A stretch of DNA of 64,000 nt from Chloroflexota bacterium (GCA_013152435.1 JAADGJ010000076.1:62001-126000); one strand, 5' to 3'. Numbered from the stretch's first letter, positions 25,296 to 46,253 are shown. A program made the numbers and translations. The notes: generated by a model from the sequence alone, not told the origin.

Positions 25296-26555
25296 ATGAG
25301 CGCTTCCAACGTCTCCTCTGTCACTCCAGAGATCCCAACACAACCTTCCGATCATCACGCGGGTCAGGAACCGGCGCGTGCTCAGGGCGCGGGCACATCC
25401 TTCGCCGATGTGCTCCAGCGGGTCGGCGGGACGAAGCCGGGCTTCAGGAATGCGTCAGGGCACGTCAGCCGCTGGCAGAGCCTGCGCTACCTGGTCTCCG
25501 GGACCCGGCTGGCGCTCCCCTCGTTCCTGCTGGGGCTGGCCTACGCGCAGCACAAGCTCGCCTCTTCCGCACAGAAGCAGACGAGAGAGGCGCACGCTGT
25601 GCAGACGTTCGCCCGGCCTGTGGCGGCGCCACAGCAGGTGAAGCGGACGGCTCCCGTTTCCGCCCCGCCGGTGAGCCTGAATCGCCCGCTGGATCTATCG
25701 GAGTATCCGCAGCCGCCCGACAACAACGGGCGTGGCATTCACTGGATCCCGACGACCAGCTCCCCGCCGGAGGTGGTCGATCGCTTTGTGGCCGAAGCCA
25801 GGCGCATGGGCATCCGGTGGGTCACGTTCCTGAATGAGGGGACGCAGATCGGTGCCAACGACTACCTGGTGAAGCGCCTGGTTGAGTCCGGCATCATGCC
25901 TGTGATGCGGATCTACACCGACGGCGGCTCGCCCATTCAGGGGGACTTGGCCGCTCTGGTGCGTCACTATCGAGATCTGGGCGTGTACTACTTCCAGCTT
26001 TACAACGAGCCGAACCTGCGTGTGGAGAACCAGGGGAGGATGCCGGACGTTGGCCGCTATCTCGATTTGTGGCTGCCCGCCGCACGTATCGTGGCGGCCA
26101 ACGGCGGATACCCGGGGTTCGGCGCGCTGAGCCCTCAAGGCGATGTGGACGATCTGACGTTCCTGCGTGAGGCGCTACGTCAGATCAAGGCGAGAGGGGC
26201 GGTGGATGTGCTCAACCGGGCCTGGCTGAGCGTCCACAACTACGGCCCGGACTTCCTGCGGGTGCGCCAGTACGACGAGATCCTGCGGGAGGAGCTGGGA
26301 CGGAGCCTGCCGCAGATCGGCACGGAAGCGGGGGTCTATGCAGGCCCCAACCTCAGCGAGCAGGAGCAGGTTCGCATCCTGTCGGAGGCTTATCGCTATA
26401 TGGAACGGCGGGAGCCGTATTACATGGCCTACACCTATTGGGTGATCGCGAACATGGCCGGCGGCGGGCATGATCCGGCATGGGAGTATCAGGCGTTGTT
26501 CCGGGCGGATGGGACGGTAAACCCGTTGGTGAAGATCCTGCGGTCTGAGGTCTGA
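25296..26555 (+). CDS. Membrane-anchored clan GH-A-like glycosidase
   Basis: The product has 419 residues. A hydrophobic stretch near residues 75-90 (LALPSFLLGLAYAQ) could anchor or export the protein. From residue 134 a TIM-barrel module begins with LSEYPQPPDNNGRGIHW. YNEPN near residue 237 has the Asn-Glu of a clan GH-A acid/base, and IGTEAGVY near residue 342 supplies the likely nucleophile Glu. It is a close relative of both modules in the protein at 41883-46253. The substrate is unknown. It ends 43 bases before flgC and may share its transcript. The start at 25296 follows GCGAGGG. Confidence 0.75.
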   Translation: MSASNVSSVTPEIPTQPSDHHAGQEPARAQGAGTSFADVLQRVGGTKPGFRNASGHVSRWQSLRYLVSGTRLALPSFLLGLAYAQHKLASSAQKQTREAHAVQTFARPVAAPQQVKRTAPVSAPPVSLNRPLDLSEYPQPPDNNGRGIHWIPTTSSPPEVVDRFVAEARRMGIRWVTFLNEGTQIGANDYLVKRLVESGIMPVMRIYTDGGSPIQGDLAALVRHYRDLGVYYFQLYNEPNLRVENQGRMPDVGRYLDLWLPAARIVAANGGYPGFGALSPQGDVDDLTFLREALRQIKARGAVDVLNRAWLSVHNYGPDFLRVRQYDEILREELGRSLPQIGTEAGVYAGPNLSEQEQVRILSEAYRYMERREPYYMAYTYWVIANMAGGGHDPAWEYQALFRADGTVNPLVKILRSEV

Positions 26556-26598
26556 ACTGAGGGAAGAGGAGTCAAACAGGGATAGCGGAGGAGGGTAT

Positions 26599-27039
26599 AT
26601 GGGGGCCTTCACAGCGTTACGAATCAGCTCGTCGGCCCTGACGGCCGAGCGGCTGCGCATGGACGTGATCGCGAACAACATCGCGAACCAGCAGACCACC
26701 CGCACGCCAGAGGGAGGGCCATACCGCCGGCGGGTGGTGGTCTTTACCCCTTTGGAAGCCCGGAAGCCATTCGGGCGGGCTAAGGAGGTGAACCGGGGGC
26801 TTCCCTCCCGCCTGGGCGTCCGGGTGGCGGCGATCCTGGAGGATCCCCGGCCGGGTGTCAAGGTGTACGATCCCGATCATCCCGACGCGGACCCGGACGG
26901 TTACGTCACCTATCCTAACGTCGACATCGTGTCCGAGATGGTGGACATGATGGCGGCCGCGCGGGCCTATGAGGCCAATGTGATCGCCGCGCAGACCGCC
27001 AAGAGCATGGCGCTGAAGGCCCTGGAGATCGGTCGTTAA
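26599..27039 (+). CDS. flgC: Flagellar proximal rod protein FlgC
   Basis: The product has 146 residues, the usual FlgC length. The N-terminal rod signature is MDVIANNIANQQTT with an SSALTAERLR lead-in, and the C-terminal rod helix is SEMVDMMAAARAYEANV. FlgC builds the proximal rod that joins the MS ring to the distal rod. GGAGGAGGG precedes the start. Unusually its normal neighbour flgB is not directly upstream but lies about 6.7 kb downstream. Confidence 0.93.
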   Translation: MGAFTALRISSSALTAERLRMDVIANNIANQQTTRTPEGGPYRRRVVVFTPLEARKPFGRAKEVNRGLPSRLGVRVAAILEDPRPGVKVYDPDHPDADPDGYVTYPNVDIVSEMVDMMAAARAYEANVIAAQTAKSMALKALEIGR

Positions 27040-27052
27040 GGAGGAGTGAGCG

Positions 27053-27373
27053 ATGGCGATCGATCCGACGATGCGAGTGGGGACGGCCTTTCCTCTATCC
27101 ATTGAGCGCCTGCCGGGGCGGACGGGTCAGAACGAGGGCGCGTCCGCGAGGAACGCCTCCTTCGGTGAGCTGGTGCAGGACGCGCTGGAGCAGCTCAACC
27201 GGCTGCAGCAGGAGGCGGACGACGCGGCCACTCGGCTGGCCATCGGCGAGCCGGTGGACCTGCACGACGTCATGATCGCCGTGCAGAAGGCGGATCTGGG
27301 ATTTCAGCTCGCCTTACAGGTGCGCAACAAGCTGATTGAGGCCTATCAAGAGATCATGCGGATGCAGGTCTAG
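27053..27373 (+). CDS. fliE: Flagellar hook-basal body complex protein FliE
   Basis: The product has 106 residues. FGELVQDALEQLNRLQQEAD near residue 36 and VDLHDVMIAVQKADLGFQLA near residue 70 are the conserved FliE helices, ending with RNKLIEAYQEIMRM. FliE connects the MS ring with the rod. It starts 13 bases after flgC behind TAAGGAGGAG, and fliF follows 14 bases later. Confidence 0.93.
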   Translation: MAIDPTMRVGTAFPLSIERLPGRTGQNEGASARNASFGELVQDALEQLNRLQQEADDAATRLAIGEPVDLHDVMIAVQKADLGFQLALQVRNKLIEAYQEIMRMQV

Positions 27374-27387
27374 CGAGGTTCGGCTCC

Positions 27388-29085
27388 ATGGACTCGATAC
27401 GGCAGCAGGCTCTGGAATGGTGGCAGAATCTGGCACGCTGGCAGCAGATCACGGCCATTGGGATCGGGGTCGTGGGCCTGGCCCTGGCCCTCTATCTCCT
27501 GGCCGTGGCTCAGGCGCCGGAGTATGCCGTCGCGTTTAGCGGGCTGACGGAGCAGGACGCTGCGGAGATCGTAGACGTGCTGAAGAAGATGAACGTGCCC
27601 TACCGGCTGGCGGGGGATGGCACCGTGATCCAGGTCCCCGCACGCCAGGTGCGTGAGATCCGGTTGGAGCTGGCCCGCCAGGGATTGCCCAAGGGGGGAA
27701 CGGTCGGATTCGAGATCTTTGACACCGGCGAGTTGGGCAATCTGGGGATGACGGATTTCGTGCAGAAGGTGAACTACCAGCGTGCCCTGGAAGGCGAGCT
27801 GGCCCGAACCATCGAGAGCCTGGAGCCGTTGCAGGCTGCCCGGGTTCACATCGTCATCCCGGAGCCGAGCCTGTTCCTGGAGGAGGAGACGAAGCCCAGC
27901 GCCTCCGTGTTGGTCCAGCTGAAGCCGGGACGGCGGCTGGAGCCGGGACAGATCGAGGCGATCACCCATCTGGTGGCCAGCAGCGTGGAGGATCTGGACC
28001 CGGAGCGCGTCACGGTCGTGGACGTGGAGGGCAACGTCCTGCATCGCGAGACGACGGAGTCCGGCGCGCCCGATACGGCGCAGCTCAACGCGATGCGGAT
28101 CGAGCTGCAGCGCAAGTACGAGATGGAAACCCAGGATCGGCTGCAGAGCCTGCTGGATAGGACGCTGGGCCCGGGGCGATCGGCCGTTCAGGTCAGCGTG
28201 GCGATGGATTGGGATCGGTTGGAGACCAGCAGTGAGACGTACAGCCCGGGGAGTGCAGAGGCGGGCGTGCTCAGAAGCTCCCGTATCGTCGAAGAGTACC
28301 AGCCCTCGCCGGAGGAGGGGGTGGGCGGCGTGCCCGGCATCGACAGCAACCAATTGGAGGTCCCGACCTACCAGGGCGTGGTGACCAGCACCACCGAGGG
28401 TGGATACGTGCGCCGGGAGGCCGTGTACAACTACGAGGTCTCCAAGACCGTCCAGAACCTGATCCGGGAGCCGGGGCGAATCAAGCGGCTGTCGGTGGCC
28501 GTGCTCCTTGATGAGAGCATACCGGAAGATGAGCGTAAGGACATCGAGCAGTTGGTGGCGGCCGCCGTTGGGCTGGATCCCTCTCGGGGGGATACGCTGG
28601 CCGTCACCGCCGTGGCGTTCAACCAGGATTATTACGACCAGCAGCAGGAGGCCCTGTTGGCCGCTCAGCGGCACGAGCTGTACATCACCGTCGCCAAGGT
28701 GTTGTCCTCGATCATTGGGCTCATCCTGTTGCTGTTCTTCGTGCGCAGCCTGTTCCGTGACCTGGCGTACCGGCGCCTGTATCCGCAGATGGAATTGATC
28801 CCGCCCACTGGCCCGGTCCCGGTCGCGGCGTTGGAGGCGGCGACCGGCCAGTTGCCCGTCGAGCAGTCGACGTCCGCTCTGGAGGCGGGAGGGACGCTGG
28901 CATCCGATCAGGAGGAACAGGAGGAAGCGGCGCCTGGTGACGAGATAAAGGACGAGGTGGACATCGCCGCCCTGTCCCCGCCCACGAACAAGGAACTGCG
29001 TTATCTGCGGCACCTCACCGCGATGGCCAGGGATAACCCCGACGTCGTGGCGGATGTCATTCGGACATGGTTGAGGGAGGGATAG
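27388..29085 (+). CDS. fliF: Flagellar MS-ring protein FliF
   Basis: The product has 565 residues, a standard length. There are two membrane segments, near 21-43 and near 432-454, with ring-building modules between them. YAVAFSGLTEQDAAEIV near residue 48 and LARQGLPKGGTVGFEIFD near residue 93 are family motifs, and VSKTVQN lies near residue 350. The last residues (MARDNPDVVADVIRTWL) form the FliG-binding tail. FliF forms the ring in the cytoplasmic membrane on which motor and export gate assemble. One base separates it from fliG. Confidence 0.94.
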   Translation: MDSIRQQALEWWQNLARWQQITAIGIGVVGLALALYLLAVAQAPEYAVAFSGLTEQDAAEIVDVLKKMNVPYRLAGDGTVIQVPARQVREIRLELARQGLPKGGTVGFEIFDTGELGNLGMTDFVQKVNYQRALEGELARTIESLEPLQAARVHIVIPEPSLFLEEETKPSASVLVQLKPGRRLEPGQIEAITHLVASSVEDLDPERVTVVDVEGNVLHRETTESGAPDTAQLNAMRIELQRKYEMETQDRLQSLLDRTLGPGRSAVQVSVAMDWDRLETSSETYSPGSAEAGVLRSSRIVEEYQPSPEEGVGGVPGIDSNQLEVPTYQGVVTSTTEGGYVRREAVYNYEVSKTVQNLIREPGRIKRLSVAVLLDESIPEDERKDIEQLVAAAVGLDPSRGDTLAVTAVAFNQDYYDQQQEALLAAQRHELYITVAKVLSSIIGLILLLFFVRSLFRDLAYRRLYPQMELIPPTGPVPVAALEAATGQLPVEQSTSALEAGGTLASDQEEQEEAAPGDEIKDEVDIAALSPPTNKELRYLRHLTAMARDNPDVVADVIRTWLREG

Positions 29086-29086
29086 C

Positions 29087-30115
29087 ATGGCAGCGAGGGA
29101 TGCATCCGCAGCCCGTCTGGATGGGGTGACCAAGGCGGCGGTTTTGCTGATCAGCCTGGGGACGGACCTCTCCGCGGCGGTGCTCCGCCGGCTCGGCGAA
29201 TCCGATGTCGAGCGGTTGACCATGACGATCATGGAGCTCCGGAACGTGGATCCGGACGTCCGATCGAAGGTGCTGGAGGAGGCCTACGAGGACGTTCAGA
29301 CCGCTCAGCTTCCGGACTCCGGCGGCATCAGCTATGTGAAAGCTCTGCTGGAGCGCGCGCTGGGGCCTCAGAAGGCGGAGGAGGTGATCCAGCGGCTGGC
29401 CGCCGAACAGCGGGAGAGGCCCTTCAGCTTCCTGGTGGACGCTGACCCGGTGCAGGTGGCGAACTTCCTGAAGGATGAGCATCCACAGGTGGTCGCCGTG
29501 GTGTTGGCGCATCTGCGCCCGGCGCAATCCGCCAAGATCCTGGCCAACCTGGAGCCCACGCTCCAGACGGATGTGTGTGCCCGCATCGCGGTGATGGACC
29601 GTGCGTCGCCACATGTGCTGCGCGAGGTGGAGCAGCAGCTTCGGAAGAAGCTGGCCACCGTCCTCCTGCGTACCGATGGGGCGTCCGCGGTGGGCGGCGT
29701 GGAGTTCCTGGCGAACGTGTTGAACCAGGTGGACCGGAGCACGGAGAAGCAGATCATGCAGGCGCTGGCGGAGTACGATCCGCAGCTGCACGAGTTGGTC
29801 CAGTCCAAGATGTTCGTGTTCGAAGATCTGCGCCTGCTGGACGACCGCTCGCTGCAGCGTGTGCTGCAGGAGGTGGATCGGCAGGACCTGCTTCTGGCGC
29901 TCCGGGGGGCCAGCGAGGAGATTCGGGAGCTGGTGTACCGCAACCTCTCCAAGCGCGCTGCTCAGCTGTTGAAGGAGGACCTGGCGACCATGGGGCCTGT
30001 CCGCCTGCGCAACGTGGAGGAGGCCCAGCAGCGGATCGTGAACATCGTCCGGCAGCTGGAGGCGGCCGAGGAGATCGTCGTTGCCCGGGGTGGCGAGGAG
30101 GATGTCCTTGTCTAG
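29087..30115 (+). CDS. fliG: Flagellar motor switch protein FliG
   Basis: The product has 342 residues. KAAVLLISLGTDLSAAVLRR near residue 10 is the FliF-binding domain, KDEHPQVVAVVLAHLRP near residue 128 contains the EHPQ motif, and the charged torque helix DDRSLQRVLQEVDRQDLLLA is near residue 255. FliG sits on the MS ring, transmits stator torque and sets rotation sense with FliM and FliN, which are not in this window. GGGAGGG precedes the start. FliH overlaps its end. Confidence 0.95.
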   Translation: MAARDASAARLDGVTKAAVLLISLGTDLSAAVLRRLGESDVERLTMTIMELRNVDPDVRSKVLEEAYEDVQTAQLPDSGGISYVKALLERALGPQKAEEVIQRLAAEQRERPFSFLVDADPVQVANFLKDEHPQVVAVVLAHLRPAQSAKILANLEPTLQTDVCARIAVMDRASPHVLREVEQQLRKKLATVLLRTDGASAVGGVEFLANVLNQVDRSTEKQIMQALAEYDPQLHELVQSKMFVFEDLRLLDDRSLQRVLQEVDRQDLLLALRGASEEIRELVYRNLSKRAAQLLKEDLATMGPVRLRNVEEAQQRIVNIVRQLEAAEEIVVARGGEEDVLV

Positions 30116-30926
30116 CGATCGTGATCGCCGTGCGGGTGATCGCCAGCCGATCTATCCCTTCCCCTTCCATGATGTGGTGGGGCGTGCCATGGAGTTCCGC
30201 CCTCTGTTCCCTGCCTCCGAGCCCGCGCCGGAATCGGAGAGGGCCCCGGAGGAGGCGCCTCAGGAGGAGCCGGAGCCTCAGGTGGATGTGCAGCCCCTGA
30301 TCGAGGAGTGGAAGGCCAAGCTGGCCGAGGTGGATCGCGTGTTGCAACAGGCGCGTCAGCGGGCGGAGGTGCTGGCGAAGGAGGCGGAGGAGCGAGGCTA
30401 CCGGGAGGGGTACGAACGGGGATACGAGGAAGGACAGGCGCTGGGGATGGAAACCGCCCAGCGTTCCCTCGACGATGAGGTGGCGAAGGTACGAGGGATC
30501 GCCCGGGCGATCTCCCAGGCTCGCCAGGAACTGCTGGCCAGCCTGGAGCCGGAGATCGTCTCGTTGGCGCTGGCGATCGCCAAGAAGGTCGTGGGAGACG
30601 AGGCGCTGCGCGACGAGACCGTGATCGCCCACATGGTGCAGAAGGCCGTACGCCAGTTGGGGCGGCGGGGGCCCTATCGCATCCGGCTGAACCCCCGGGA
30701 CGCGCAGCGCCTGATGGATCGTTGGCGGGTGAAGGATGAGCTCGACGGCGCGGAGTGGGAATTGATCCCGGACGAGCGTATCTCGATCGGAGGGTGCGTC
30801 CTGGAAAGCGGCGTCGCCTCCGTGGATGCGCGTCTGGAGACGCAGTTTGACCTGATCCAGCACGCGTTGCTGGAGGGGCAAAACGAGGCGTCGGACCAGG
30901 AGCTGTCGGATGGAGGTCTCGATTAA
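30102..30926 (+). CDS. fliH: Flagellar export ATPase regulator FliH
   Basis: The product has 274 residues. An acidic, Pro-rich N-terminus (residues 35-65) leads to a coiled coil with GYREGYERGYEEGQALGME near residue 100, the Gly-repeat segment typical of FliH. The C-terminal domain has IVSLALAIAKKVVGDEAL and YRIRLNPRDAQRL. It binds the FliI ATPase and regulates export. ATG 30102 overlaps the end of fliG and is favoured over 30081, though an SD is squeezed against it. The end overlaps fliI. Confidence 0.88.
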   Translation: MSLSSDRDRRAGDRQPIYPFPFHDVVGRAMEFRPLFPASEPAPESERAPEEAPQEEPEPQVDVQPLIEEWKAKLAEVDRVLQQARQRAEVLAKEAEERGYREGYERGYEEGQALGMETAQRSLDDEVAKVRGIARAISQARQELLASLEPEIVSLALAIAKKVVGDEALRDETVIAHMVQKAVRQLGRRGPYRIRLNPRDAQRLMDRWRVKDELDGAEWELIPDERISIGGCVLESGVASVDARLETQFDLIQHALLEGQNEASDQELSDGGLD

Positions 30927-32247
30927 CCTGCGCAAGTATCACGAGATCCTTTCCGGGCTGACGCTGCTGCGCTGCCGGGGCCAGGTGGTCCAGGTCATCG
31001 GGCTGGCCATTGAGGCGGAAGGGCTGGCATCGCAGGTCGGCGAGCTGTGCTACGTGTATCCGGCCGGCCGGGATCGCCCCATCGCGGCCGAGGTCGTCGG
31101 GTTCAAATCCGATCGCACCCTGCTGATGCCTCTGGGCGAGATGGAGGGCATCCAGCCCGGCAGCCCGGTGATCGCCACGGGCGGCCCGTTCACCATACCG
31201 GTCGGGCCGGAGCTACTGGGCCGGGTTGTGGACGGGTTGGGACGCCCGCTCGATGGCAAGGGGCCCCTGGTGGGAGCGCAGAAGTCGCCGCTGGATAGCA
31301 CGGCGCCCCATCCGCTCCGCCGCCGGGTGATCTCCGAACCCCTGTCCACGGGGATTCGGGCGATCGATGGGCTGCTGACCTGCGGCAAGGGGCAGCGTAT
31401 CGGGATCTTCGCCGGGAGCGGCGTGGGCAAGAGCACTCTGATGGGCATGATCGCCCGACACGCGGCCTCGGATGTGAATGTGATCGCGCTGATCGGGGAG
31501 CGTGGACGTGAGGTCCGAGAGTTCATCGAGATGAATCTGGGGCCGGAGGGGCTGGCCCGCTCCGTGGTCGTCGTCTCCACCTCGGATCATCCGCCGCTGA
31601 TCCGCATCAAGGGGGCGTGGACGGCGACCGCCATCGCCGAGTATTTCCGGGATCAGGGGATGGACGTGGTGTTCATGATGGACTCCGTCACCCGGTTCGC
31701 CATGGCCCAGCGAGAGGTGGGGCTGGCCATTGGCGAGCCGCCGGCCATGAAGGCGTACCCGCCCTCCGTCTTCGCGCTCCTGCCCAAGCTGATGGAGCGC
31801 ACGGGGGCCAGCGAGACGGGGACTATCACCGGGTTCTACACCGTCCTGGTGGAGTCGGATGACCTGACGGAGCCCATCACGGATACGGTGCGCAGCATCC
31901 TGGACGGACATATCGTGTTGAGCCGTGCGCTGGCCGCCGAGAACCATTACCCGGCCATCGACATCCTCCAGAGCGTGAGCCGGTTGATGCCCAACATCAC
32001 GACGCGAGAGCACCAGCGGGCGGCCGGCCGGCTGCGGGAGGCGCTGGCCACCTACGAGCGGGCGCGTGATCTTATCAACATCGGGGCCTACGTTTCCGGG
32101 AGCAATCCTCAGATCGATTATGCGCTGGAGAAGCTGCCCGACATCCAGGGCTTCCTGCGCCAGGAGGATGATGAGGTCACTCCGCTGGAGGAGTCCATCG
32201 CCCGTCTGCTGGAGATGTTCCCGCCGACGCAGGCGGAGGCCGCATAG
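30910..32247 (+). CDS. fliI: Flagellum-specific ATP synthase FliI
   Basis: The product has 445 residues. Walker A is FAGSGVGKSTLMGM near residue 167, Walker B is VVFMMDSVTRFAMAQREVGL near residue 253, and PPSVFALLPKLMERTG follows, all as in FliI. It powers or gates export of rod, hook and filament subunits with FliH and FliJ. The start overlaps the fliH stop region with AGGAG ahead of it, which indicates translational coupling. Confidence 0.95.
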   Translation: MEVSINLRKYHEILSGLTLLRCRGQVVQVIGLAIEAEGLASQVGELCYVYPAGRDRPIAAEVVGFKSDRTLLMPLGEMEGIQPGSPVIATGGPFTIPVGPELLGRVVDGLGRPLDGKGPLVGAQKSPLDSTAPHPLRRRVISEPLSTGIRAIDGLLTCGKGQRIGIFAGSGVGKSTLMGMIARHAASDVNVIALIGERGREVREFIEMNLGPEGLARSVVVVSTSDHPPLIRIKGAWTATAIAEYFRDQGMDVVFMMDSVTRFAMAQREVGLAIGEPPAMKAYPPSVFALLPKLMERTGASETGTITGFYTVLVESDDLTEPITDTVRSILDGHIVLSRALAAENHYPAIDILQSVSRLMPNITTREHQRAAGRLREALATYERARDLINIGAYVSGSNPQIDYALEKLPDIQGFLRQEDDEVTPLEESIARLLEMFPPTQAEAA

Positions 32248-32289
32248 ATGAGACTCGGGCGCGTCAGATCGAGCCTGTGAGGTGCGAGG

Positions 32290-32739
32290 ATGAGGAAGCG
32301 ATTTCGCCTGGAGTCCGTGCTGTCCTACCGTGAGTCATTGGTAGAGGCCCGCGAGATGGAGCTGGCGGAGGCCGTCAAGATGCAGGCCCACGCGGAGGCG
32401 ATCTTGAGGGCGTTGCAGGAGAGGCGCGTGCGCACCTTGCGGGAGATCCGGGAGATGCGCAGCGATGCTCGATTGGACCAGATGGGCCTGTTGACGGCCG
32501 AATCCTATCTGGCGCGCCTGGAGGCGGACCTGGAACAGCAGGCGGCGGTCGTTCGAGAGCTGGCGCAGCGGACGGAGGCCTGCCGTGAGGCGCTCACCGA
32601 GGCTCTGCAGGAGAAGAAGAAGATCGAGCGCTTGAAGGAGCGCGAGGAGCAGCGCCTGGCCCAGGAGGAAGCCCGGGCGGAGCAGGTCTTTGTGGACGAC
32701 TTGAACATCACCCGGCATAACCGAAGAGAGGTGTTGTGA
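32290..32739 (+). CDS. fliJ: Flagellar export chaperone FliJ
   Basis: The product has 149 residues and is almost wholly coiled coil. The beginning (MRKRFRLESVLSYRESL) and the end (EEARAEQVFVDDLNITRHNR) are typical of FliJ. Position directly after fliI supports the call. It acts as the central stalk of the export ATPase and in recycling chaperones. Sequence identity in this family is low, so the call rests partly on gene order. Confidence 0.85.
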   Translation: MRKRFRLESVLSYRESLVEAREMELAEAVKMQAHAEAILRALQERRVRTLREIREMRSDARLDQMGLLTAESYLARLEADLEQQAAVVRELAQRTEACREALTEALQEKKKIERLKEREEQRLAQEEARAEQVFVDDLNITRHNRREVL

Positions 32740-32743: not shown

Positions 32744-33280
32744 ATGGAAGGCATCATCGGGGGCATTGGGGCACACTTCACGTTGGCGAGGATTCAGACG
32801 GCGATCTTGCAGCAGTTCGCCGAGCGGCTGGCCCGCTCCGATCAGGCGCGTCGCACCCCGTCCGGTGCAAGGGCGCGCTCCGGGATGGGGCCAGTCCCCT
32901 TCGAGGAATTGATCGAGGCGGCGGCGAAGCGGCACGATCTGCCCGCGCAGCTGATCAAGGCGGTGATCTGGGCCGAGTCGAACTTTGACCCGAAGGCGGT
33001 CTCCTCGGCCGGCGCCAAAGGGCTCATGCAGCTCATGGATGCTACCGCGAAGGCGTTGGGGGTCGAGGATAGCTTCGATCCCGCGCAGAACATTGAGGGT
33101 GGAGTGACCTACCTGCGGCGACTGTTGGACCGCTATGGCGACGTCTCCCTGGCGCTGGCGGCCTACAACGCGGGGCCGGGTGCCGTGGATCGCTATGGCG
33201 GCATCCCTCCCTACGCGGAGACGCAAACCTACGTGCGGCGGGTGTTGGAAGCCGCCGGCGTGGGGGAGTGGATGGCATAG
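32744..33280 (+). CDS. Lytic transglycosylase of the flagellar operon
   Basis: The product has 178 residues. An SLT domain covers about residues 50-175, with the catalytic Glu in VIWAESNFDPKAVSS, then GAKGLMQLM and ALAAYNAGPGAVDRYGG. It cleaves peptidoglycan glycan strands, and here probably opens the wall for the rod, the job of FlgJ in other bacteria. No signal peptide is visible, so it may use the flagellar export route or another path. It lies four bases after fliJ and ten bases before flgB. Confidence 0.88.
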   Translation: MEGIIGGIGAHFTLARIQTAILQQFAERLARSDQARRTPSGARARSGMGPVPFEELIEAAAKRHDLPAQLIKAVIWAESNFDPKAVSSAGAKGLMQLMDATAKALGVEDSFDPAQNIEGGVTYLRRLLDRYGDVSLALAAYNAGPGAVDRYGGIPPYAETQTYVRRVLEAAGVGEWMA

Positions 33281-37292: not shown

Positions 37293-39362
37293 GTGCAAGT
37301 CAGTGATCTGAACATCTTTTCCCTGATCCAGCCGGCCATGGGAGAGGCCCTCATTGGCGCCGAGGCCTCCATGACGGCCGCGTCGGCCACCGTGGGCGAT
37401 TTCCGCCCCATGCTGTGGGCTTTGTTCGCGGCCGCCGGGGATGGCCCGGGCCAGGGCGACGATGCGGCCGCCATGGCGCCGGGGGAGGACATGGCGCAGG
37501 ACGCCCGTCCTGAACGATCGATCGGGCGGAAGGAGGTGGTGCCTGCAGGCGATCTGGCGCTGTCCTGCGTGGGGGTCAGTGTGTTCCCCCCAAGTGTCCA
37601 ACCGGAGCTGGTGAGCGGTGGGCCCGTCGCGTCGGCCTTCCATGCGTCGGAGGCTGGGGTGGAGGGCGTGGAGGCGCTGGCGGATGTCCTCCAGGCGGGG
37701 GGACGTGGCCCGCATCCGGGGGCGGGCAAGGTCGCACCCCGGGCGTGGCCTGACGGCCTATCCGCCCAGACCGTGTCCCCTCCGGAGGGGGAGACGACCT
37801 GGATGGGAGCGCCGTTCGTGGCGTCCACTCCGAGTATGTCGCCCGTAGGCGTGGAGGGAAAGCCGGAGGAAGCCTCCCAGGCCCTACCGCAAGGGCAGCT
37901 GGGTGGACAGGAGGGCATCCGAGAGGGTGTCGTCCAGCCCTCTGTCGCCCCATCGATGACGCTCGCGGCCGAGCCGAGCTCCGCTCTGGAGGCGCCGATG
38001 TCGGAGATGCCGAAGGGGGCGCAGCTGCCCGAGGGATCTCAGGGCGTCATCTCTGGCGGCTCCGATGGCTCACCGGGGACAGGCCGGAAGTCTGGTGCCT
38101 CGAAGCCGGTGGGGCGGCCATCCATCTGGGCGGATCCTGTCGTGTCATCGCCGGGACGTACGGAGGGCTCGGCTGCCCAGTCCTCGGGTGAGGAGCCATC
38201 GATGGGAGTGGAGTCGGGACGCCTCCCAAGTGTGAGGGACGCGATCGGGATGCGGGTGCCCCGATGGAGAAGGACGCTCCTGGCGGGGCGGAACATCCCA
38301 CCCGTCGGGAGGCCCGAGATGGAGTCCGGCCCCGCTCGTGTGGACGTCCCCGACGCGGGGAAGCCGATGCGAGAAGAAAAGCCGTCTGGAGTGGAGGCCG
38401 TTGGGCTTCCCCGGACGGAGGCGGCGCGGCCCTCTGGGGCAAGCGTTCCGCCGGTGGTCGGTGATGGGACGGGGGAGCCGGCGCGGCCGGTCTCTTCCGG
38501 ACGTGTGACAGCGCCTGTTCGGGGGGAGACCCCAGTGGTCCCGGACGCGGCGAAGACGTCCCCTCCGGTGGGCGTCGGGGGGCGAGATCCCAGGGATGTG
38601 CCATCACCCGCTGCGCGGGCGGATGTCGGGCTCGACTCCATGGGAGATCGGGGGATAGCGGCCCAACGCGGGCACGTGAACAGCACCCTGATGAATCCTC
38701 GCCCGGCTGAGATCCCGGCGGCTGTCGAGGCCGGACGTGATCCGGGGATGGCTTACTCCCGTCCCGGAGGTGAGCGTCGCGAGCCGGGAGCCCGGCAGGC
38801 CCCAGGCCCCGCATCCGTCTCGTGGGCGGAGGCGGCGCCCATTCCGGGGGCGAAGAACCCGGTTGCCAGATCCGCTGAGGTCGGGGCCGGGCTCGTGAGC
38901 TCCGATGGGCGAGAGTTCAACATCGCGGACACGCTGGAGGAACTGGTGGGCCAGATCCGGGTGGCCTGGCGGCGTGGCGAGTCGGAGTGCCGGCTGCAGC
39001 TTCATCCGGAGCAGCTGGGCCGCCTGGAGGTGCGTCTGGTGTCTGGTCGCAATGGGATGACCCTGCTCATGCGGACGGAGACGGCCGAGGCGCAGGCGGT
39101 CATCCAGTCGAACCTGGATCGTCTGCGCACAGGGCTGGAGGGGCACGGCATCCACCTGGAGCGGTGTGAGGTCGTGGCCGGCCAGATGGACGCCGGGGGC
39201 GCGAGCTGGCAGAACGGCGGCGGGCAGGGGCCCTTGTGGGACCAGCCTGAGCTGCCGGGGTATGTCCCAGCGGCGTACACACGCCCCACCACCGAACGCA
39301 TCACCGGGGCGCGTCGGCCGGCATATCGGCGTCCTGATGCGCTGATCGATCTGGAGGTCTAG
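37293..39362 (+). CDS. fliK: Flagellar hook-length control protein FliK
   Basis: The product has 689 residues, longer than the usual 350-500. The first 540 residues are a low-complexity Pro/Gly/Ala/Val-rich ruler. The conserved Flg_hook domain lies near 545-640, with CRLQLHPEQLGRLEVRL and LDRLRTGLEGHGIHL. FliK measures the hook and switches export to filament subunits. The start is GTG at 37293 behind AAAGGAGGTGATT, a nearly perfect anti-SD match. FlgD follows after 11 bases. Confidence 0.86.
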   Translation: MQVSDLNIFSLIQPAMGEALIGAEASMTAASATVGDFRPMLWALFAAAGDGPGQGDDAAAMAPGEDMAQDARPERSIGRKEVVPAGDLALSCVGVSVFPPSVQPELVSGGPVASAFHASEAGVEGVEALADVLQAGGRGPHPGAGKVAPRAWPDGLSAQTVSPPEGETTWMGAPFVASTPSMSPVGVEGKPEEASQALPQGQLGGQEGIREGVVQPSVAPSMTLAAEPSSALEAPMSEMPKGAQLPEGSQGVISGGSDGSPGTGRKSGASKPVGRPSIWADPVVSSPGRTEGSAAQSSGEEPSMGVESGRLPSVRDAIGMRVPRWRRTLLAGRNIPPVGRPEMESGPARVDVPDAGKPMREEKPSGVEAVGLPRTEAARPSGASVPPVVGDGTGEPARPVSSGRVTAPVRGETPVVPDAAKTSPPVGVGGRDPRDVPSPAARADVGLDSMGDRGIAAQRGHVNSTLMNPRPAEIPAAVEAGRDPGMAYSRPGGERREPGARQAPGPASVSWAEAAPIPGAKNPVARSAEVGAGLVSSDGREFNIADTLEELVGQIRVAWRRGESECRLQLHPEQLGRLEVRLVSGRNGMTLLMRTETAEAQAVIQSNLDRLRTGLEGHGIHLERCEVVAGQMDAGGASWQNGGGQGPLWDQPELPGYVPAAYTRPTTERITGARRPAYRRPDALIDLEV

Positions 39363-39373
39363 GAGGTAGGCGT

Positions 39374-39808
39374 ATGGATGAAACCCCTTGGGCAGTTGCA
39401 GCGGCCGGTCTCATGGCGGCTGCCCCTCAGGCGCAGGAGAGCCGTCCGGAGAGCGACGAGCGCTCCTTGCTGGGGATCGACCATGAGGCCTTTCTCAAGC
39501 TTCTGATCGCCCAGATCCGTCACCAAGATCCGTTGTCCCCCATGGACAGCGGGGAGTTCCTGTCGCAGCTGGCCGAGCTCACGACGCTGGAGCAGATGTG
39601 GCGCATGAACGAGAGCTTGCAGGCCTTCATGTCGCAACAGCAGCTCCTGCAGGCCAGCGCTATGATCGGGCGCACGGTGCAGGGGACGGATGACACCGAC
39701 CAGCCCTTCCAGGGCGTGGTGCAGGGTGCCCTGGTCCGTGATGGCACGGTGACCCTGGATCTGGGAGATCGACAGGTGCCGCTGAAGTGGGTCACTTCGG
39801 TGCGTTGA
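39374..39808 (+). CDS. flgD: Flagellar hook-capping protein FlgD
   Basis: The product has 144 residues, a short form that lacks the larger FlgD outer domains. DHEAFLKLLIAQIRHQDPLS near residue 36 and EFLSQLAELTTLEQM near residue 61 are the FlgD N-terminal motifs, and SAMIGRTVQG near residue 94 starts the remaining beta part. It caps the growing hook. TAGGAGGTAGG precedes the start. Confidence 0.93.
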   Translation: MDETPWAVAAAGLMAAAPQAQESRPESDERSLLGIDHEAFLKLLIAQIRHQDPLSPMDSGEFLSQLAELTTLEQMWRMNESLQAFMSQQQLLQASAMIGRTVQGTDDTDQPFQGVVQGALVRDGTVTLDLGDRQVPLKWVTSVR

Positions 39809-39828
39809 GGTATGGAGTGAGCGTGCAT

Positions 39829-40221
39829 ATGGTTGAGAAGATCACACTGCCCATCGCGTCGGAGTCCGTGCGGGGAGCGACGTCTGCCCGGCGCGAGAGC
39901 GCCTCACGGCCGCCGGACTCGGGGCGACCCGACTTCGCCGCCGTCCTGCGTCAGGAGATGGAGGAGGAGGGGCTTCGCTTCTCCCGTCATGCGACCTCTC
40001 GTCTCCAGGCGCGCGGGATTGAGTTGGATGCGGCGCAGCGGGATCGCATCGAGAGGGCTGTGGAGGCGGCTCGCCAGAAGGGGGCGAAGGAGTCGCTGAT
40101 CCTGCTGGACGATCTGGCGTTCGTGGTGAGCGTCCGCAATCGCACCGTGATCACGGCCATTGATGCCGCTCATCGCAGATCGAACGTGTTCACGCACATC
40201 GACAGTGCGGTGCTCGCCTGA
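39829..40221 (+). CDS. Flagellar operon protein, TIGR02530 family
   Basis: The product has 130 residues. RFSRHATSRLQARGIEL near residue 46 and SLILLDDLAFVVSVRNRTVI near residue 87, then NVFTHIDSAV at the end, match the short flagellar operon protein found between flgD and flgE in Firmicutes and other monoderm-type loci. The role is not established; gene position suggests hook assembly. ATG 39829 is chosen with GGAGTGA upstream; a GTG at 39823 is also possible. Confidence 0.83.
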   Translation: MVEKITLPIASESVRGATSARRESASRPPDSGRPDFAAVLRQEMEEEGLRFSRHATSRLQARGIELDAAQRDRIERAVEAARQKGAKESLILLDDLAFVVSVRNRTVITAIDAAHRRSNVFTHIDSAVLA

Positions 40222-40228
40222 TCGGATC

Positions 40229-40248
40229 GCTCGGGCCGGTGCCCGAGC
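40229..40248 (+). terminator. Hairpin after the TIGR02530-type gene
   Basis: GCTCGGGC pairs with GCCCGAGC around CGGT. Only a short TTT follows, so it may weaken rather than end transcription before flgE. Confidence 0.4.
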
Positions 40249-40353
40249 TTTGGAGGAAGACGGAATCCGTTGCGTACGGCCGGACCTCTTGCAGGGGGCC
40301 GACGCAACAACATGACATAACGAATCACAAAACCCCTTCAGGAGGTAGTCACG

Positions 40354-41589
40354 ATGTTGCGCTCTATGATTTCTGCTTCGTCTGCTCTGCGGTTCCACCA
40401 GACGTTCATGGACGTGGTGGCGAACAACATCGCCAACGTGAACACGGTTGGGTTCAAGAGCAGCCGGATCACGTTCCAGGAGATGATGAACCAGGTCATC
40501 AGCAGCGGTGTCGGGCCCGATCCGGCGGCCAATCGCGGCGGGATCAACCCGATACAGATCGGCCTGGGCATGATGCTGGGAGGCGTGCAGACGCAGTTCC
40601 TCCAGGGTGGGCTGCAGGCCACCGGGCGGAACAGCGACCTGGCCATTCAGGGAGAGGGGTTCTTCATCTACCAGGGCCCCAATCAGCAGTATTACTCACG
40701 AGACGGCACGCTGGATATCTCCACCGACGGGAAGCTGGTGAATCCGAACACGGGGATGTACATCCTCGGATGGCAGGCCGTGAACGGTAGCGTCGATCCC
40801 TCAGGGCCGCTGACCCCGATCACCATCGCGTTGGGCAGCGGGGTCACCGCCCAGCAGACGGAGAACGTCACCTTCGGCGGGAATCTGAATTCCTCCGCCG
40901 ATACCGGTGAGGCGACCTCCGTCACCTTTGAGGTCTACGACTCTATGGGGACGTCTCACTACATCACGCTGACCTTTGAGAAGCAGGCCGCCAATACGTG
41001 GAGCGTCACGGCCAGCACCAATGATCCCGATGTCACCATCACGAACCCCACCCTTACCGACATCGAGTTCGATGCGCAGGGGCAGGTGACCGCTGGTGGC
41101 ACGCAGACGATGCAGATCCAGCTGGCCAATGGGGCGGACACCCCGCAGGACATCAACCTGAACCTGAGCGGCCTGACCCAGCTGGCCGACCTGAGCGAGG
41201 TGCGGGCCATCTCGCAGGACGGCAACGCGGCGGGCGCCCTCATCGGCTTCGATGTCGCGGCCAGCGGCATGGTGATGGGGGTGTACTCCAACGGGCTGCG
41301 CCAGGCCGTGGGGCAGATCGCCCTGGCGACGTTCCGCAACCCGGCCGGCCTCATCAAGATCGGGCAGAACCTCTTCGCCGAATCGGCCAACACGGGCGAT
41401 CGCGTGGTGGGTGTGGCCGGAACCGGGGAGCGTGGGCAGATCAACGCGGGCTATCTGGAGATGTCCAACGTGGACCTGGCCACGCAGTTCACGGACATGA
41501 TCCGGGCCCAGCGTGGGTTCCAGGCCAACTCCCGGGTGATCACCGCCTCCGATCAGATGCTGACGGAGCTGGTGAACATCGTCCGGTAG
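40354..41589 (+). CDS. flgE: Flagellar hook protein FlgE
   Basis: The product has 411 residues. VVANNIANVNTVGFKSSRIT near residue 22 is the rod/hook N-terminal motif, NSDLAIQGEGFFIY near residue 93 is the FlgE/F/G signature, and the C-terminus has YLEMSNVDLATQFTDMIRAQ and GFQANSRVI. The long middle domain fits the hook subunit rather than the FlgF or FlgG rod. It polymerises into the universal joint. CAGGAGG precedes the start. It is the last flagellar gene before the large glycosidase-like gene. Confidence 0.92.
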   Translation: MLRSMISASSALRFHQTFMDVVANNIANVNTVGFKSSRITFQEMMNQVISSGVGPDPAANRGGINPIQIGLGMMLGGVQTQFLQGGLQATGRNSDLAIQGEGFFIYQGPNQQYYSRDGTLDISTDGKLVNPNTGMYILGWQAVNGSVDPSGPLTPITIALGSGVTAQQTENVTFGGNLNSSADTGEATSVTFEVYDSMGTSHYITLTFEKQAANTWSVTASTNDPDVTITNPTLTDIEFDAQGQVTAGGTQTMQIQLANGADTPQDINLNLSGLTQLADLSEVRAISQDGNAAGALIGFDVAASGMVMGVYSNGLRQAVGQIALATFRNPAGLIKIGQNLFAESANTGDRVVGVAGTGERGQINAGYLEMSNVDLATQFTDMIRAQRGFQANSRVITASDQMLTELVNIVR

Positions 41590-41620: not shown

Positions 41621-41662
41621 ATAAGCACTTGCTCAAACGATGCGAAGGCGTGAGCTTGCGTT

Positions 41663-41693: not shown

Positions 41694-41882
41694 AGTACGA
41701 AGGGCGGGAAAGCGGCATCTTCATGGCTGCCGGTTTATGTCCAGGGGCACAACCTTGTGTTGGGTGACGCGTGCGTTGCCCCCGATGGAAGGGGGCGACC
41801 GGCCGGTTTTGGGGGATAGGTAGCCCTTGCCTGAGCTTTGAAAATCCCTGGGGTATCCTCGATGAGGGAGGGGAGTGTCGTG

Positions 41883-44800
41883 ATGAAAGTGAAGACGATG
41901 CGCATTCGTCCCGTGATGGAGTGGGTCATGCGATTGATCGCGCTGGCTTTGTTGGCGAGCGGGGGGATCGCGTGGTCGGTGGATGCGCAGGATGCGGCCC
42001 CACTTCCTCTTAGCGAGTACCCTAGGCCGCCGCAGGATAACGGGCTGGGGATCCACTGGACGACTAACGTCTACGGCCAGTCCCCTGAGGTGGTGGATTA
42101 CTTCATCGCCGAGATGGAGGCCATGGGGATCAAGTGGGTAAAGTTCCTGAACGATGGCACGGATGGGCGCCACAACGAATATCTGATCCAACAGTTGGTG
42201 GCCCACGGGATGATGCCCATCATGAGGATCTACCAGCCGTGCAACAAGCCGTTGGACCTCGGCTCGCTGCGTCGGCTGGTCCGACACTATCGCCCCATGG
42301 GAGTGTACTACTACGAGCTGTTCAACGAGCCCGACCTGGAGGGCGAGGCGGGCGGCTGGTGTGGCGGTGGGCATCCGGACCCGGAGCGCCTGTTCCGCAT
42401 GTGGCTGCCGGCCGCTCGTGTGATCCAGGAGGAGGGCGGGTTCCCCTCGCTTCCGGCCATGTTCCCGCCGTCGATCAAGGACCCCAACTGGCAGAACAGC
42501 TTCTTCATCCGCTTCTTGCGGCTCATCAAGGAGACGGGGAACACCGACGTCCTGTATCGCTCCTGGGGGGCTGTGCACAACTACTTCCTGAACCATCCCG
42601 TTCGCTACCCTTACGACGAGGTCAATCTGAAAGGCACGCCGCTCTCCCAGGAAGAGATCGAGCGGTATGGCCTCTCTCCGGCCGAGGTGCAGGCGATCAA
42701 CCACGCCCGTCAGATCGCTCGCCGGCCGCGATCGGAGGGGGGCTACTACGTGGGGGACACCATCGATGAGGACAATAACGGCTTTCTCCAGTTCATAGCC
42801 TATCGGAATCGCTTCTATGAGATCTTCGGATTTGAGATCCCGCTCATCAGCACCGAGGGGGGAGCCACCGTTGGATCCAGTGAGGACCCTCGGTATCCCA
42901 AGGTGACCCCGGCCTTGCAGGCGGAGATGACCATTGAGGCGTTCGAGTACATGCTCGACGAGGCGCCTCCCTACTACTTCGCGTTCACGAGCTGGCTGAT
43001 CGGCGAGCGGGCTCTGGACAATCCCAACCCCACCTGGGAGTCCTGGGCCTGGTACCAGAATCGAGAGGGGCGTCACCTCCCCGTGGTGGATATGCTCAAA
43101 TCCCATCCACGGCGTGGCGAGACGCGGCGCAACGCGCCGGTGGCGACGAGGCCGCTCTGGACGCCACGTGTCGCGTCGGATCCGGCCCCAACGCCGACGC
43201 CGACCCCCGTGCAGGAGGAGGTGGCGGAGGCTGCCGCCCTGCCCAGGCCATTGAACCCGCCTCCTGCCGCGGGAGCGCTGCCGCTGAGCGCGTACCCGCG
43301 CCCTCCGCGAGATAACGGATGGGGGATTCACTGGACCCCCACGCTGTTCAGCCAACCGCCGGAAGTGGTGGATCGCCTGGTGGGGGAGATCGAGGACATG
43401 GGGCTGCGATGGGTCAAGCTGATGCAGCCCGATGAGCCCAAGCTGGAGCATACCTACCTGATCGAGCAGCTCACGCAGCGGGGGATCATGCCCGTCTTGC
43501 GGATCTATCGCCCCTTCAATGATCCCTACGAGCATCTGGACGTGATCGTGCGAGAGGGGATCGCCCGCGGGGTGTATTACTACGAGCTATACAACGAGCC
43601 GAACATCGCGGGGGAGGCCGGGGGATGGCGCCCGGGTGAGGAGATCAGCGTTGCCCGGATCGCGGACCTGTGGATCCCCGCGGCGCGACAGATCGCCGCC
43701 CTGGGCGGATATCCGGGGCTGCCGACGCTGGCCCCTGGCGGCTCCTACGACGACATGAAGTTCCTGGCCGAGTTCCTGGATTTGCTCAAACAGCGCGACG
43801 CCCTGGATACGCTGGACCGCGCTTGGGTGCCTTTGCACAACTATTTCTTCAACCACCCGCTCAACTATCCGGAGGATCCGGTCAATCTATGGAGCGTGCT
43901 GCTGACGCCCGCCGAGATCAGCGAACGAGGGCTCAGCGCGGCCGACGTGGAGGCCATCAATCACGCCCGTCAGATCTCTCGTTTGCCTCGCGAGCAGGGT
44001 GGTTATTACGTGGGGGACACCATCGACAAGGACTCCAACGGCTTTCGGAAGTTCGAGGCGTATCGGAACATCCTCTACACCCGGATCGGCCGGGAGATCC
44101 CGATCATCACCACGGAGGGTGGCGCGATCGTGGGAGCGCGTGAGGACCCTCGTTATCCTCCCGTGACCGAGGCGGACGTCGTACAGCGGACCCAGGCGGC
44201 CTTCCAGTACATGCTAGACGAGGCCCCGCCGTACTATTTCGCCTTCATGCCGTGGCTGTTGAGCAATCTGGACAGCGGCGGGAGCAATCCGGCGTGGGAG
44301 GGAGCTGCCTGGTATCAGGCCGGGGGCGGGCCACGTCCTGTGGTGCTGGCCATCAAGCGGCTCGCGGCCCAGGGGAGGACCCGACGGCATGTCCCTGTGG
44401 ACAACGGGTACGTGCTGGCCACGCCCACGCCTACCGTCGCCCCGACCCCCGCGCCGGCCACGGGAGCTCCGGCGGGGGCATCCACGGCGCCTTTGCCGGC
44501 TGTGCTGCCCAGCGTCAGCCAGTCCTATCTGCTGATCCCGACCTATCCGTACGACCAGGCGTTGGTCCCCACATCGCCGGACGACCCGATCTATCCCTAT
44601 CCCCGGCTGGATTTCGACCGGCTGGGCCCACCCACGCCGCGTACCTACCAGGCGGTGATCCTGGAGAACGCTTACACGCGGCTGGTGATCCTGCCCGAGT
44701 TGGGGGGGCGGATCTATCAGTGGATCGACAAGGCCACCGGCCGCTCCCTGGTGTACCAGAACCCGGTCATCAAGCCGACTCGATGGGGGTATCGCGGCTG

Positions 44801-46253
44801 GTGGATCGGAGCGGGAGGGTTCGAGTGGGCGTTCCCGGTGGACGAGCACGGGTTCAATGAGTACCCCGCGTGGACGTATCAGACCTATGCGGATCGTCAG
44901 CAGGCCGGCGTGACCCTGACGCGCACGGATGAGCGGACGGGGTTGCGGGCGGAGATCACGATCTCGCTAGACGCGAGCCACTCGTATTTCACCCTGTCCA
45001 TGAAGCTGAGCAACCCGACGGCCACACCGCAGCGGTATCAGTTCTGGGTGAACGCCATGCTGGCCCCCGGGGGCAATCAGGTCTCCCCCGGGACCCGGTT
45101 CGTGTGGCCGTCGGACACCCTGGTCGTTCACTCCAGCGCGGACGAGAAGACGTTCCCGGCCGGACGTCGCATGGATTGGCCCATGGCCGGGGGACGGGAT
45201 CTGCGCTCGTATGATGCCTGGCCCGCCTACCTGGGGTTCTTCGGCGTGGCGCAGCGAGATTTCATGGGGGTCTACGATCCTCAGGTCGGCGTGGGAGTGG
45301 TCCGGATCTTCCCCGCCGATGCCGCCCCGGGGGTGAAGATCTTCGCCGCGCCGGGATTGGATCCCAGCCTGTGGACGGACGACGGCAGTCGTTATCTGGA
45401 GCTGTGGGGTGGGGTGACCCCCGATTTCGCCACCTATGCAGAGCTGGCCCCGGGCCAGAGCGTGGCGTGGACTGAGCGATGGTATCCCACGGGGCGGATC
45501 GGGCCGGCGGTCTGGGCCTCTGAGGATCTGGCGTTGGGGCTGGACTGGAGCGGGAACGAAGTCGTGCTGGGGGTCACCGCCGCCGGCGGGGCGAGTGGAC
45601 AGCTCCAGCTATGGCGGGACGGCGTCCTGGTGAACCAGTGGACGGCCGATCTAGCCCCGGGTGAGAGCCTGACCGCACGCTGGCGGGCGGATAATCCCGC
45701 CGCCCATCGCTGGAAGGTCCAGTGGGTGGACCGGCAGGGCAGGGTGGTGGCCGGTGCAGAGGTGGACGGCGGCCGGGTGAACCCTGCGCCCGGGCCGGAG
45801 GTCAGAGCCCCCGCGGGGCCGACGTCTCCTGCGGAGCCGGGACCGGTGGCCTCCCCGCCTCAGAACCCGGGCCTGGTGTGGGATCCCCGGCTGGATCAGC
45901 TTGGAGTGCGCGTGGAACGGGCGTCCTCTGCTCCCGGCCAGCCCGTCTGGAGGCTGATCGAGGCGCGCTGGGAGAGCCCAGAGGAGGCCCAGGGATTGCA
46001 TCACGTCTTCATCCGTGTGTTGGACGAGAATGGGCGGCCGGTGGTAGGACAGCCCGTGGAACTGTCGTGGTCCGATGGATCGGCGACCACCTCTACGGAG
46101 GAGGAGAAGGGGGCGAATTTCCCGCTATACGGCCCGCTGGGGGCGTATACCGTCCAGGTCGTCGGGACCAGCGACCGGGTGGTGGGGTTGGGTCTTCCCA
46201 GCAAGCATCACGTCAACTATCGGCTGACCTTCCAGCGGATGACCGGCCCCTGA
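41883..46253 (+). CDS. Secreted protein with two clan GH-A-like modules and a DUF5107 domain
   Basis: The product has 1456 residues. A signal peptide covers about 1-37 (LIALALLASGGIAWSVDAQ). Module 1 (about 39-409) has FNEPD near 146 and STEGGA near 322; module 2 (about 462-829) has YNEPN near 569 and TTEGGA near 743. Each shows the acid/base and nucleophile Glu of clan GH-A. Thr-Pro linkers separate the parts. A DUF5107/mutarotase-like beta-sandwich spans about 915-1140 (LPELGGRIYQWIDKATGRS), then more beta-rich sequence. It probably degrades or binds extracellular glycans. ATG 41883 follows GGGAGGGGAG. Confidence 0.8.
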   Translation: MKVKTMRIRPVMEWVMRLIALALLASGGIAWSVDAQDAAPLPLSEYPRPPQDNGLGIHWTTNVYGQSPEVVDYFIAEMEAMGIKWVKFLNDGTDGRHNEYLIQQLVAHGMMPIMRIYQPCNKPLDLGSLRRLVRHYRPMGVYYYELFNEPDLEGEAGGWCGGGHPDPERLFRMWLPAARVIQEEGGFPSLPAMFPPSIKDPNWQNSFFIRFLRLIKETGNTDVLYRSWGAVHNYFLNHPVRYPYDEVNLKGTPLSQEEIERYGLSPAEVQAINHARQIARRPRSEGGYYVGDTIDEDNNGFLQFIAYRNRFYEIFGFEIPLISTEGGATVGSSEDPRYPKVTPALQAEMTIEAFEYMLDEAPPYYFAFTSWLIGERALDNPNPTWESWAWYQNREGRHLPVVDMLKSHPRRGETRRNAPVATRPLWTPRVASDPAPTPTPTPVQEEVAEAAALPRPLNPPPAAGALPLSAYPRPPRDNGWGIHWTPTLFSQPPEVVDRLVGEIEDMGLRWVKLMQPDEPKLEHTYLIEQLTQRGIMPVLRIYRPFNDPYEHLDVIVREGIARGVYYYELYNEPNIAGEAGGWRPGEEISVARIADLWIPAARQIAALGGYPGLPTLAPGGSYDDMKFLAEFLDLLKQRDALDTLDRAWVPLHNYFFNHPLNYPEDPVNLWSVLLTPAEISERGLSAADVEAINHARQISRLPREQGGYYVGDTIDKDSNGFRKFEAYRNILYTRIGREIPIITTEGGAIVGAREDPRYPPVTEADVVQRTQAAFQYMLDEAPPYYFAFMPWLLSNLDSGGSNPAWEGAAWYQAGGGPRPVVLAIKRLAAQGRTRRHVPVDNGYVLATPTPTVAPTPAPATGAPAGASTAPLPAVLPSVSQSYLLIPTYPYDQALVPTSPDDPIYPYPRLDFDRLGPPTPRTYQAVILENAYTRLVILPELGGRIYQWIDKATGRSLVYQNPVIKPTRWGYRGWWIGAGGFEWAFPVDEHGFNEYPAWTYQTYADRQQAGVTLTRTDERTGLRAEITISLDASHSYFTLSMKLSNPTATPQRYQFWVNAMLAPGGNQVSPGTRFVWPSDTLVVHSSADEKTFPAGRRMDWPMAGGRDLRSYDAWPAYLGFFGVAQRDFMGVYDPQVGVGVVRIFPADAAPGVKIFAAPGLDPSLWTDDGSRYLELWGGVTPDFATYAELAPGQSVAWTERWYPTGRIGPAVWASEDLALGLDWSGNEVVLGVTAAGGASGQLQLWRDGVLVNQWTADLAPGESLTARWRADNPAAHRWKVQWVDRQGRVVAGAEVDGGRVNPAPGPEVRAPAGPTSPAEPGPVASPPQNPGLVWDPRLDQLGVRVERASSAPGQPVWRLIEARWESPEEAQGLHHVFIRVLDENGRPVVGQPVELSWSDGSATTSTEEEKGANFPLYGPLGAYTVQVVGTSDRVVGLGLPSKHHVNYRLTFQRMTGP

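Follow-up and report, generated by a model that had tools for sequence, protein, structure and literature searches.

Wall hydrolases dedicated to the flagellum are known in FlgJ, SltF, and BB0259 (LTase-Bb). FlgJ of β- and γ-proteobacteria combines a rod cap with a muramidase/glucosaminidase, and SltF and BB0259 are lytic transglycosylases separate from the rod cap. The flagellar export route also carries flagellinolysin, a metalloprotease lodged inside flagellin and displayed on the filament (PMC5595980). Outside these systems, PslG is a retaining endo-β-glucosidase (PMC11912335) with the catalytic pair E165/E276 (PMC7237758). Here we analyze a window of 64,000 nucleotides, spanning 62001-126000 of contig C76 in a 5.0-Mb Chloroflexota draft genome, in which a locus of glycoside hydrolase (GH) and flagellar genes extends from 25296 to 46253. 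Its first gene encodes P0001, here called GHsolo, and its last P0002, or GHdouble. A search of the open-licence literature turned up no comparable glycosidase encoded within a flagellar operon. An earlier note on this DNA stated that such enzymes have no described flagellar role, which holds for GH-A folds and not for flagellum-dedicated wall hydrolases as a whole. We favor, by a modest margin over even, the reading that GHsolo is an early substrate of the flagellar type III secretion system (T3SS) that would hydrolyze wall glycan so that the rod can cross the monoderm envelope; export, activity, and substrate are all predicted.

A predicted glycosidase family in a flagellar locus

The main features of the two GH proteins and of the gene next to GHsolo are as follows.

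25296..26555, + strand: P0001 (GHsolo), 419 amino acids, flagellum-linked GH-A-like protein, 43 bp 5′ of flgC
25296..25650, + strand: N-terminal region of P0001, ~118 amino acids, predicted to be disordered (per-residue model confidence, pLDDT, and hydropathy)
25401..25415, + strand: FADVL, P0001 residues 36–40, an FxxxL sequence and candidate FlhB gate-recognition motif
25473..25493, + strand: WQSLRYL, second short motif of the P0001 N terminus, W-x-x-L-x-[FY]-L
25683..26552, + strand: GH domain of P0001, predicted TIM barrel, residues 130–419 (AlphaFold pLDDT, Foldseek)
26007..26009, + strand: E238 (NEP) of P0001, predicted acid/base, invariant in 43 sequences
26325..26327, + strand: E344 (TEAG) of P0001, predicted nucleophile, invariant in 43 sequences
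26599..27039, + strand: FlgC (NCBIfam TIGR01395, E=8.7e-49)
41883..46253, + strand: P0002 (GHdouble), Sec signal and two GH modules
about 42000-43112 and 43269-44387, + strand: GH modules of P0002
about 44586-45491, + strand: DUF5107 of P0002, followed by an Ig-like C terminus

The open reading frames and coordinates of the GH proteins were as the earlier note gave them. The start pattern it described for all three modules is present, although with two residues rather than one between PP and NG (S-x-YP-x-PP-x-x-NG-x-GIHW), and both catalytic Glu motifs, NEP and TE(A/G)G, are kept in each module. The GH domain of P0001 shares ~49% identity with both P0002 modules (E about 1e-52), so the common pattern did not arise by chance. 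Pfam and NCBIfam name the intervening genes as flagellar, confirming that the modules bracket flagellar genes. Scans for promoters and terminators near the two GH genes returned no matches; such scans are uninformative for this organism.

Comparison with known flagellar enzymes

GHsolo resembles FlgJ in lying among rod genes, in being a predicted early T3SS substrate, and in its proposed action as a rod-stage glycan hydrolase. It differs in having a GH-A TIM barrel instead of the FlgJ glucosaminidase fold, in the presence of a separate SLT gene, and in belonging to a monoderm without FlgI. Membership in FlgJ was rejected, as the rod-binding domain PF10135 was unmatched in the window's own genome and in 25 flagellated genomes of its class, in none of which FlgI was found either, and P0001 gave no Pfam match to the C-terminal glucosaminidase/muramidase domain of FlgJ. 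The best explanation is that GHsolo works like the enzymatic half of FlgJ while being unrelated in sequence, a function predicted from its setting and fold.

With SltF and BB0259, GHsolo would share the status of a flagellum-dedicated wall enzyme separate from the rod cap; their role, however, belongs here to the SLT protein encoded at 32744-33280. GHsolo contains no SLT domain, has another fold and mechanism, and carries no Sec signal. Like flagellinolysin, it would travel by the flagellar export route, but it is a predicted glycosidase encoded outside flagellin, beside rod genes, and contains no flagellin N or C domains; the Flagellin_N matches of its own genome sit elsewhere.

Conservation of gene order

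Of 396 genomes drawn without bias from the window's class, 25 encode FlgC. GHsolo lies immediately 5′ of flgC in 22 of these 25. Eight genomes, four from the window's family and four from other families of the class, keep the order GHsolo-flgC-fliE-fliF-fliG and, where the contig allows, flgE-GHdouble as well. Across 33 loci, the median distance from the GHsolo stop to the flgC start is 11 bp; the genes overlap by 4 bp in 10 loci, and the gap is ≤98 bp in all but a single outlier of 254 bp (32/33). GHsolo is thus apparently co-operonic with the proximal rod genes. According to tallies made by hand from gene maps, GHdouble, or its start, follows flgE on the 3′ side in 14 class genomes with enough contig beyond flgE, and is missing there in four that have room (G201, G234, G371, and G381).

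A second sample covered 400 genomes of the phylum from outside the class. Strong-scoring GH copies outside the class occurred in ten FlgC-positive genomes. Eight of these have a copy on the flgC contig, more commonly directly 3′ of flgB than 5′ of flgC, and several other Chloroflexota families show the linkage. The proposal that these modules are built into a flagellar locus is therefore strongly supported, and the association is not confined to one genome, the outcome that the earlier note had named as counting against it. That a secreted GH was inserted by accident into the flagellar locus of one lineage has a negligible probability; nothing in the comparison speaks for it, and 22 of 25 genomes in many families, with two distinct conserved positions, speak against it.

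A flagellar linkage was also considered for Riflebacteria and rejected: four genomes encode FlgC, but their GH copies have no flagellar genes in view and carry hydrophobic N-terminal segments. The Riflebacteria/Ozemobacter homologues (L108, L110, L111, and L112) share 36–39% identity, one of them with LysM, and occur in flagellated genomes away from the flagellar genes. Separately, one genome in which FlgC was not detected (G035, locus L051, contig C4 near 18775) has a GHdouble-like module beside cheA, cheB, cheR, and methyl-accepting chemotaxis protein genes.

N terminus and export route

The N termini of flagellum-linked GHsolo copies are very variable in length and sequence and rich in Ala, Pro, Ser, and Thr. 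Residues 1–111 of P0001 have pLDDT values <50 in the AlphaFold model, and this N terminus shows neither a Sec signal nor a transmembrane segment (maximum 15-residue hydropathy 1.24). The same is true of all 39 flagellum-linked copies, whose maximum 15-residue hydropathy is ≤1.82. For non-flagellar copies the corresponding range is 1.85–2.95, with a strongly hydrophobic segment in 22 of 23, many of which have a lipobox.

An FxxxL sequence is present in 39/39 flagellum-linked N termini, against 12.3 expected from composition-preserving shuffles, and control patterns with other spacings or residues occur in 3–17 of the 39 (8–17 for the spacing controls). These sequences are related and do not represent 39 independent events, although the sequence around the motif has largely diverged. 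Its typical distance from a plausible start is 28–50 residues, and in P0001 it reads F36-A-D-V-L40 and falls inside a short predicted helix. The W-x-x-L-x-[FY]-L motif is found in many flagellum-linked copies, not in all. Early flagellar T3SS substrates carry an FxxxΦ gate-recognition motif near residues 30–50, which the flagellum-linked copies match. FlgD of Salmonella has its FlhB gate-recognition motif at residues 36–40 (PMC8983047), and FlgB of the same bacterium needs F45 (PMC9307174). Within the window, F-x-x-x-hydrophobic occurs at residues 33–50 of FliE, FlgB, FliK, FlgD, the TIGR02530 protein, and FlgE. From the motif and the operon position, we infer that GHsolo is an early flagellar T3SS substrate.

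Two other fates of the protein were weighed against these data. The flagellar channel could release GHsolo into the medium, where it would serve as a non-structural effector or a nutritional enzyme and contribute nothing to assembly. The flagellar T3SS can export non-flagellar proteins, as reported for Campylobacter (PMC2764114), and ordinary secreted members of the GH family are common across Chloroflexota. The tight coupling to flgC, with its 4-bp overlaps, makes this improbable, and the FxxxL-bearing, signal-less form occurs away from flagellar loci only on contigs without a flagellar gene in view (L074 and L081). Even less probable is a cytoplasmic GHsolo that trims or quality-controls the glycans of flagellar proteins, or is a non-catalytic scaffold, with FxxxL incidental. 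The low conservation of the N terminus would suit such a protein, as would the fact that export is itself a prediction, but FxxxL is universal where other spacings are not, both Glu residues are invariant, and Sec or lipoprotein signals mark the homologues found away from flagellar loci, which implies that the active site works outside the membrane.

Those non-flagellar homologues include a clade with lipoprotein signals, and FlgC was found in 0 of 15 genomes checked from it. The tree nests this clade among the flagellar copies; support from the Shimodaira–Hasegawa-like approximate likelihood ratio test (SH-aLRT) is only 83–87 on the deciding forks, too low to fix the direction of the export-route switch. 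These results suggest that one enzyme family switched between flagellar-channel and lipoprotein export, tracking the presence of FlgC. GHdouble copies with a visible N terminus mostly have strong Sec-type segments, and GHdouble is Sec-exported, probably with a different, extracellular role. The idea of one family with one role thus stands for the homology of the modules but not for their function, as GHsolo lacks a Sec signal and is T3SS-substrate-like, whereas GHdouble has one.

Four lipoprotein-type homologues from genomes without FlgC (L096, L100, L105, and L123) each lie downstream of a similar-sized gene, which in L105 and L123 belongs to the F420-ligase family and adjoins an amidohydrolase gene.

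Enzyme fold and family

The AlphaFold model of the P0001 GH domain has pLDDT values mostly of 94–99, with E238 just after strand E232-235 and E344 in strand E340-346. Both residues are invariant in 43 homologues, down to 40% identity. The model shows the pattern of clan GH-A retaining glycosidases, a TIM barrel with Glu after strands 4 and 7, making GHsolo a predicted enzyme.

Neither P0001 nor P0002 matched a curated GH family, and P0001 matched no curated Pfam or NCBIfam family at all. Pfam Cellulase (PF00150, GH5) matched 4 of 43 family members (best E=1.9e-4) and not P0001, and a profile search of the PDB with P0001 gave a best E of 0.13, with nothing below E=0.1. No known GH family could be assigned convincingly by these three routes. 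Foldseek returned GH39 (5jvk), PslG (5bx9, 9g17, and 4zn2), and GH128 (6uav and 6uax) as best matches, at 16–19% identity and with modest TM-scores of about 0.5, or 0.66–0.68 by target length, which are modest partly because the disordered N terminus was included in the query.

PslG and GH39 are thus among the best structural matches, and the spacing of the catalytic Glu residues is alike (about 106–111 residues; E238/E344 versus E165/E276). GHsolo differs from them in sequence (~16% identity; TM about 0.5), in its flagellar operon, and in lacking a C-terminal carbohydrate-binding domain. The GH128 endo-β-1,3-glucanases share the compact TIM barrel (TM 0.66–0.68 normalized to target), but at 18–19% identity and with no family-level sequence match. 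The comparison with GH5 and GH39 proposed in the earlier note bore out the GH-A-type barrel and the likeness to GH39/PslG folds, but the Pfam, NCBIfam, and PDB profile searches did not place GHsolo in GH39. It is best called an unclassified GH-A-like family, one not yet in Pfam or NCBIfam.

Envelope and substrate

In Tepidiforma, a flagellated member of the Chloroflexota, the envelope comprises a membrane, a peptidoglycan layer about 20 nm thick, and an S-layer (PMC10284905). In Litorilinea, a related member, inner, outer, and lattice layers lie over the peptidoglycan and are remodelled at the pole (PMC13319060). The genomes analyzed here encode penicillin-binding proteins. No SLH-type S-layer proteins were found in 10 genomes, so targeting of the S-layer could not be examined by that route.

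Two flagellum-linked members are fused to NlpC/P60, which precedes the GH domain in L088 and follows it in L078. A non-flagellar relative is fused to M23, a Riflebacteria relative carries LysM, and M23-like sequence was seen by eye in several other relatives. The genome of L088 and L106 (G588/G418, handled as Chloroflexota) encodes a flagellar NlpC/P60-GH copy together with a second copy that is anchored in the membrane.

The SLT gene is present in genomes with and without the GH, which suggests that the substrate of GHsolo is probably a second glycan, either linked to peptidoglycan or lying over it. An exported GHsolo might instead clear a glycan outside the wall (that of a capsule, sheath, exopolysaccharide, or S-layer glycoprotein) for emergence of the hook and filament or for exit from a biofilm or multicellular filament. 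We regard this as unlikely, although it is the strongest of the alternatives. PslG, an exopolysaccharide-degrading enzyme, is among the nearest structural matches; the Litorilinea layers are remodelled at the pole; peptidoglycan is already covered by the SLT; and the same locus encodes an extracellular relative, GHdouble. On the other side, GHsolo adjoins the proximal-rod genes flgC or flgB, not filament genes, and fusions to peptidoglycan peptidases or LysM occur among its family members. Of the three roles put forward earlier, wall remodelling for the flagellum is the best supported.

Proposed mechanism

Under the wall-glycan reading, the disordered N terminus of GHsolo would dock at FlhB via FxxxL, and the protein would be exported while FliE, FlgB, and FlgC assemble. 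Its GH-A-type domain would then fold outside the membrane and act as a retaining glycosidase, using E238 and E344 to cut a glycan of the cell wall around the growing rod; these roles are suggested by the fold and the invariant residues. The target may be peptidoglycan itself, but a wall polysaccharide linked to it or lying over it is more likely, and the neighbouring signal-less SLT transglycosylase would open the peptidoglycan. GHsolo would in this way do the job of the enzymatic half of FlgJ in a monoderm without FlgJ and FlgI. The Sec-exported GHdouble may act on a cell-surface or extracellular polysaccharide.

Several observations weigh against this mechanism. Three FlgC-positive class genomes (G201, G371, and G381) lack the GH and have flagellin-FliD-FlaG-FliS-FlgC in its place. 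Elsewhere in the phylum, most sampled flagellated genomes are without a close copy, which marks the trait as clade-specific and not universally needed. The SLT, found with and without the GH, already supplies peptidoglycan cleavage, the nearest folds (GH39/PslG and GH128) act on exopolysaccharide or β-glucan, and the case for export consists of a short motif and an operon position.

The broader proposal, a new class of flagellar assembly enzyme in which a GH-A-fold glycosidase of a new family was re-routed from Sec/lipoprotein export to the flagellar channel via FxxxL and clears a passage for the rod through a wall layer of monoderm Chloroflexota, seems to us evenly balanced. If GHsolo acts as proposed, it would be a flagellum-dedicated wall enzyme of a kind seemingly missing from B. 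subtilis. The question bears on how the rod crosses a thick monoderm wall, and both the predicted export signal and the catalytic residues can be mutated.

Neighbouring genes

The remaining genes of the locus are as follows.

27053..32739, + strand: FliE, FliF, FliG, FliH, FliI, and FliJ (Pfam)
32744..33280, + strand: SLT lytic transglycosylase, signal-less, flagellar (PF01464, E=3.3e-32)
33330..33713, + strand: FlgB, start approximate (TIGR01396, E=3.7e-28)
33726..37190, + strand: P0003, Sec-exported CBM96/DNRLRE protein, possible glycosidase
37293..41589, + strand: FliK, FlgD, TIGR02530 protein, and FlgE (Pfam/NCBIfam)

We also considered whether flgE and GHdouble flank a small flbD-like gene and rejected this, as no convincing open reading frame was found there. 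The best NCBIfam model for the SLT protein is BB0259_flg_lyt, below cut-off. The flagellar SLT has no Sec signal in the relatives' loci examined, and its N terminus carries FxxxL in several loci (e.g. L163, L166-L169, and L088); judged from these sequences, the flagellum may be its export route too.

P0003, the third large glycosidase-like protein of the earlier note, is a real secreted CBM96/DNRLRE protein, but its glycosidase nature is not established. Its glycosidase matches are weak (PDB 6y2k, E=0.03; NCBIfam GH35, E=0.029), and the AlphaFold model, built from three sequences, is of low confidence (pLDDT 42), too poor to accept it as a confirmed glycosidase. Its gene sits between flgB and fliK; parts are permuted in one genome (G028, L047), and the middle part is missing in another (G003, L040). 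This variation is domain shuffling within the flagellar operon.
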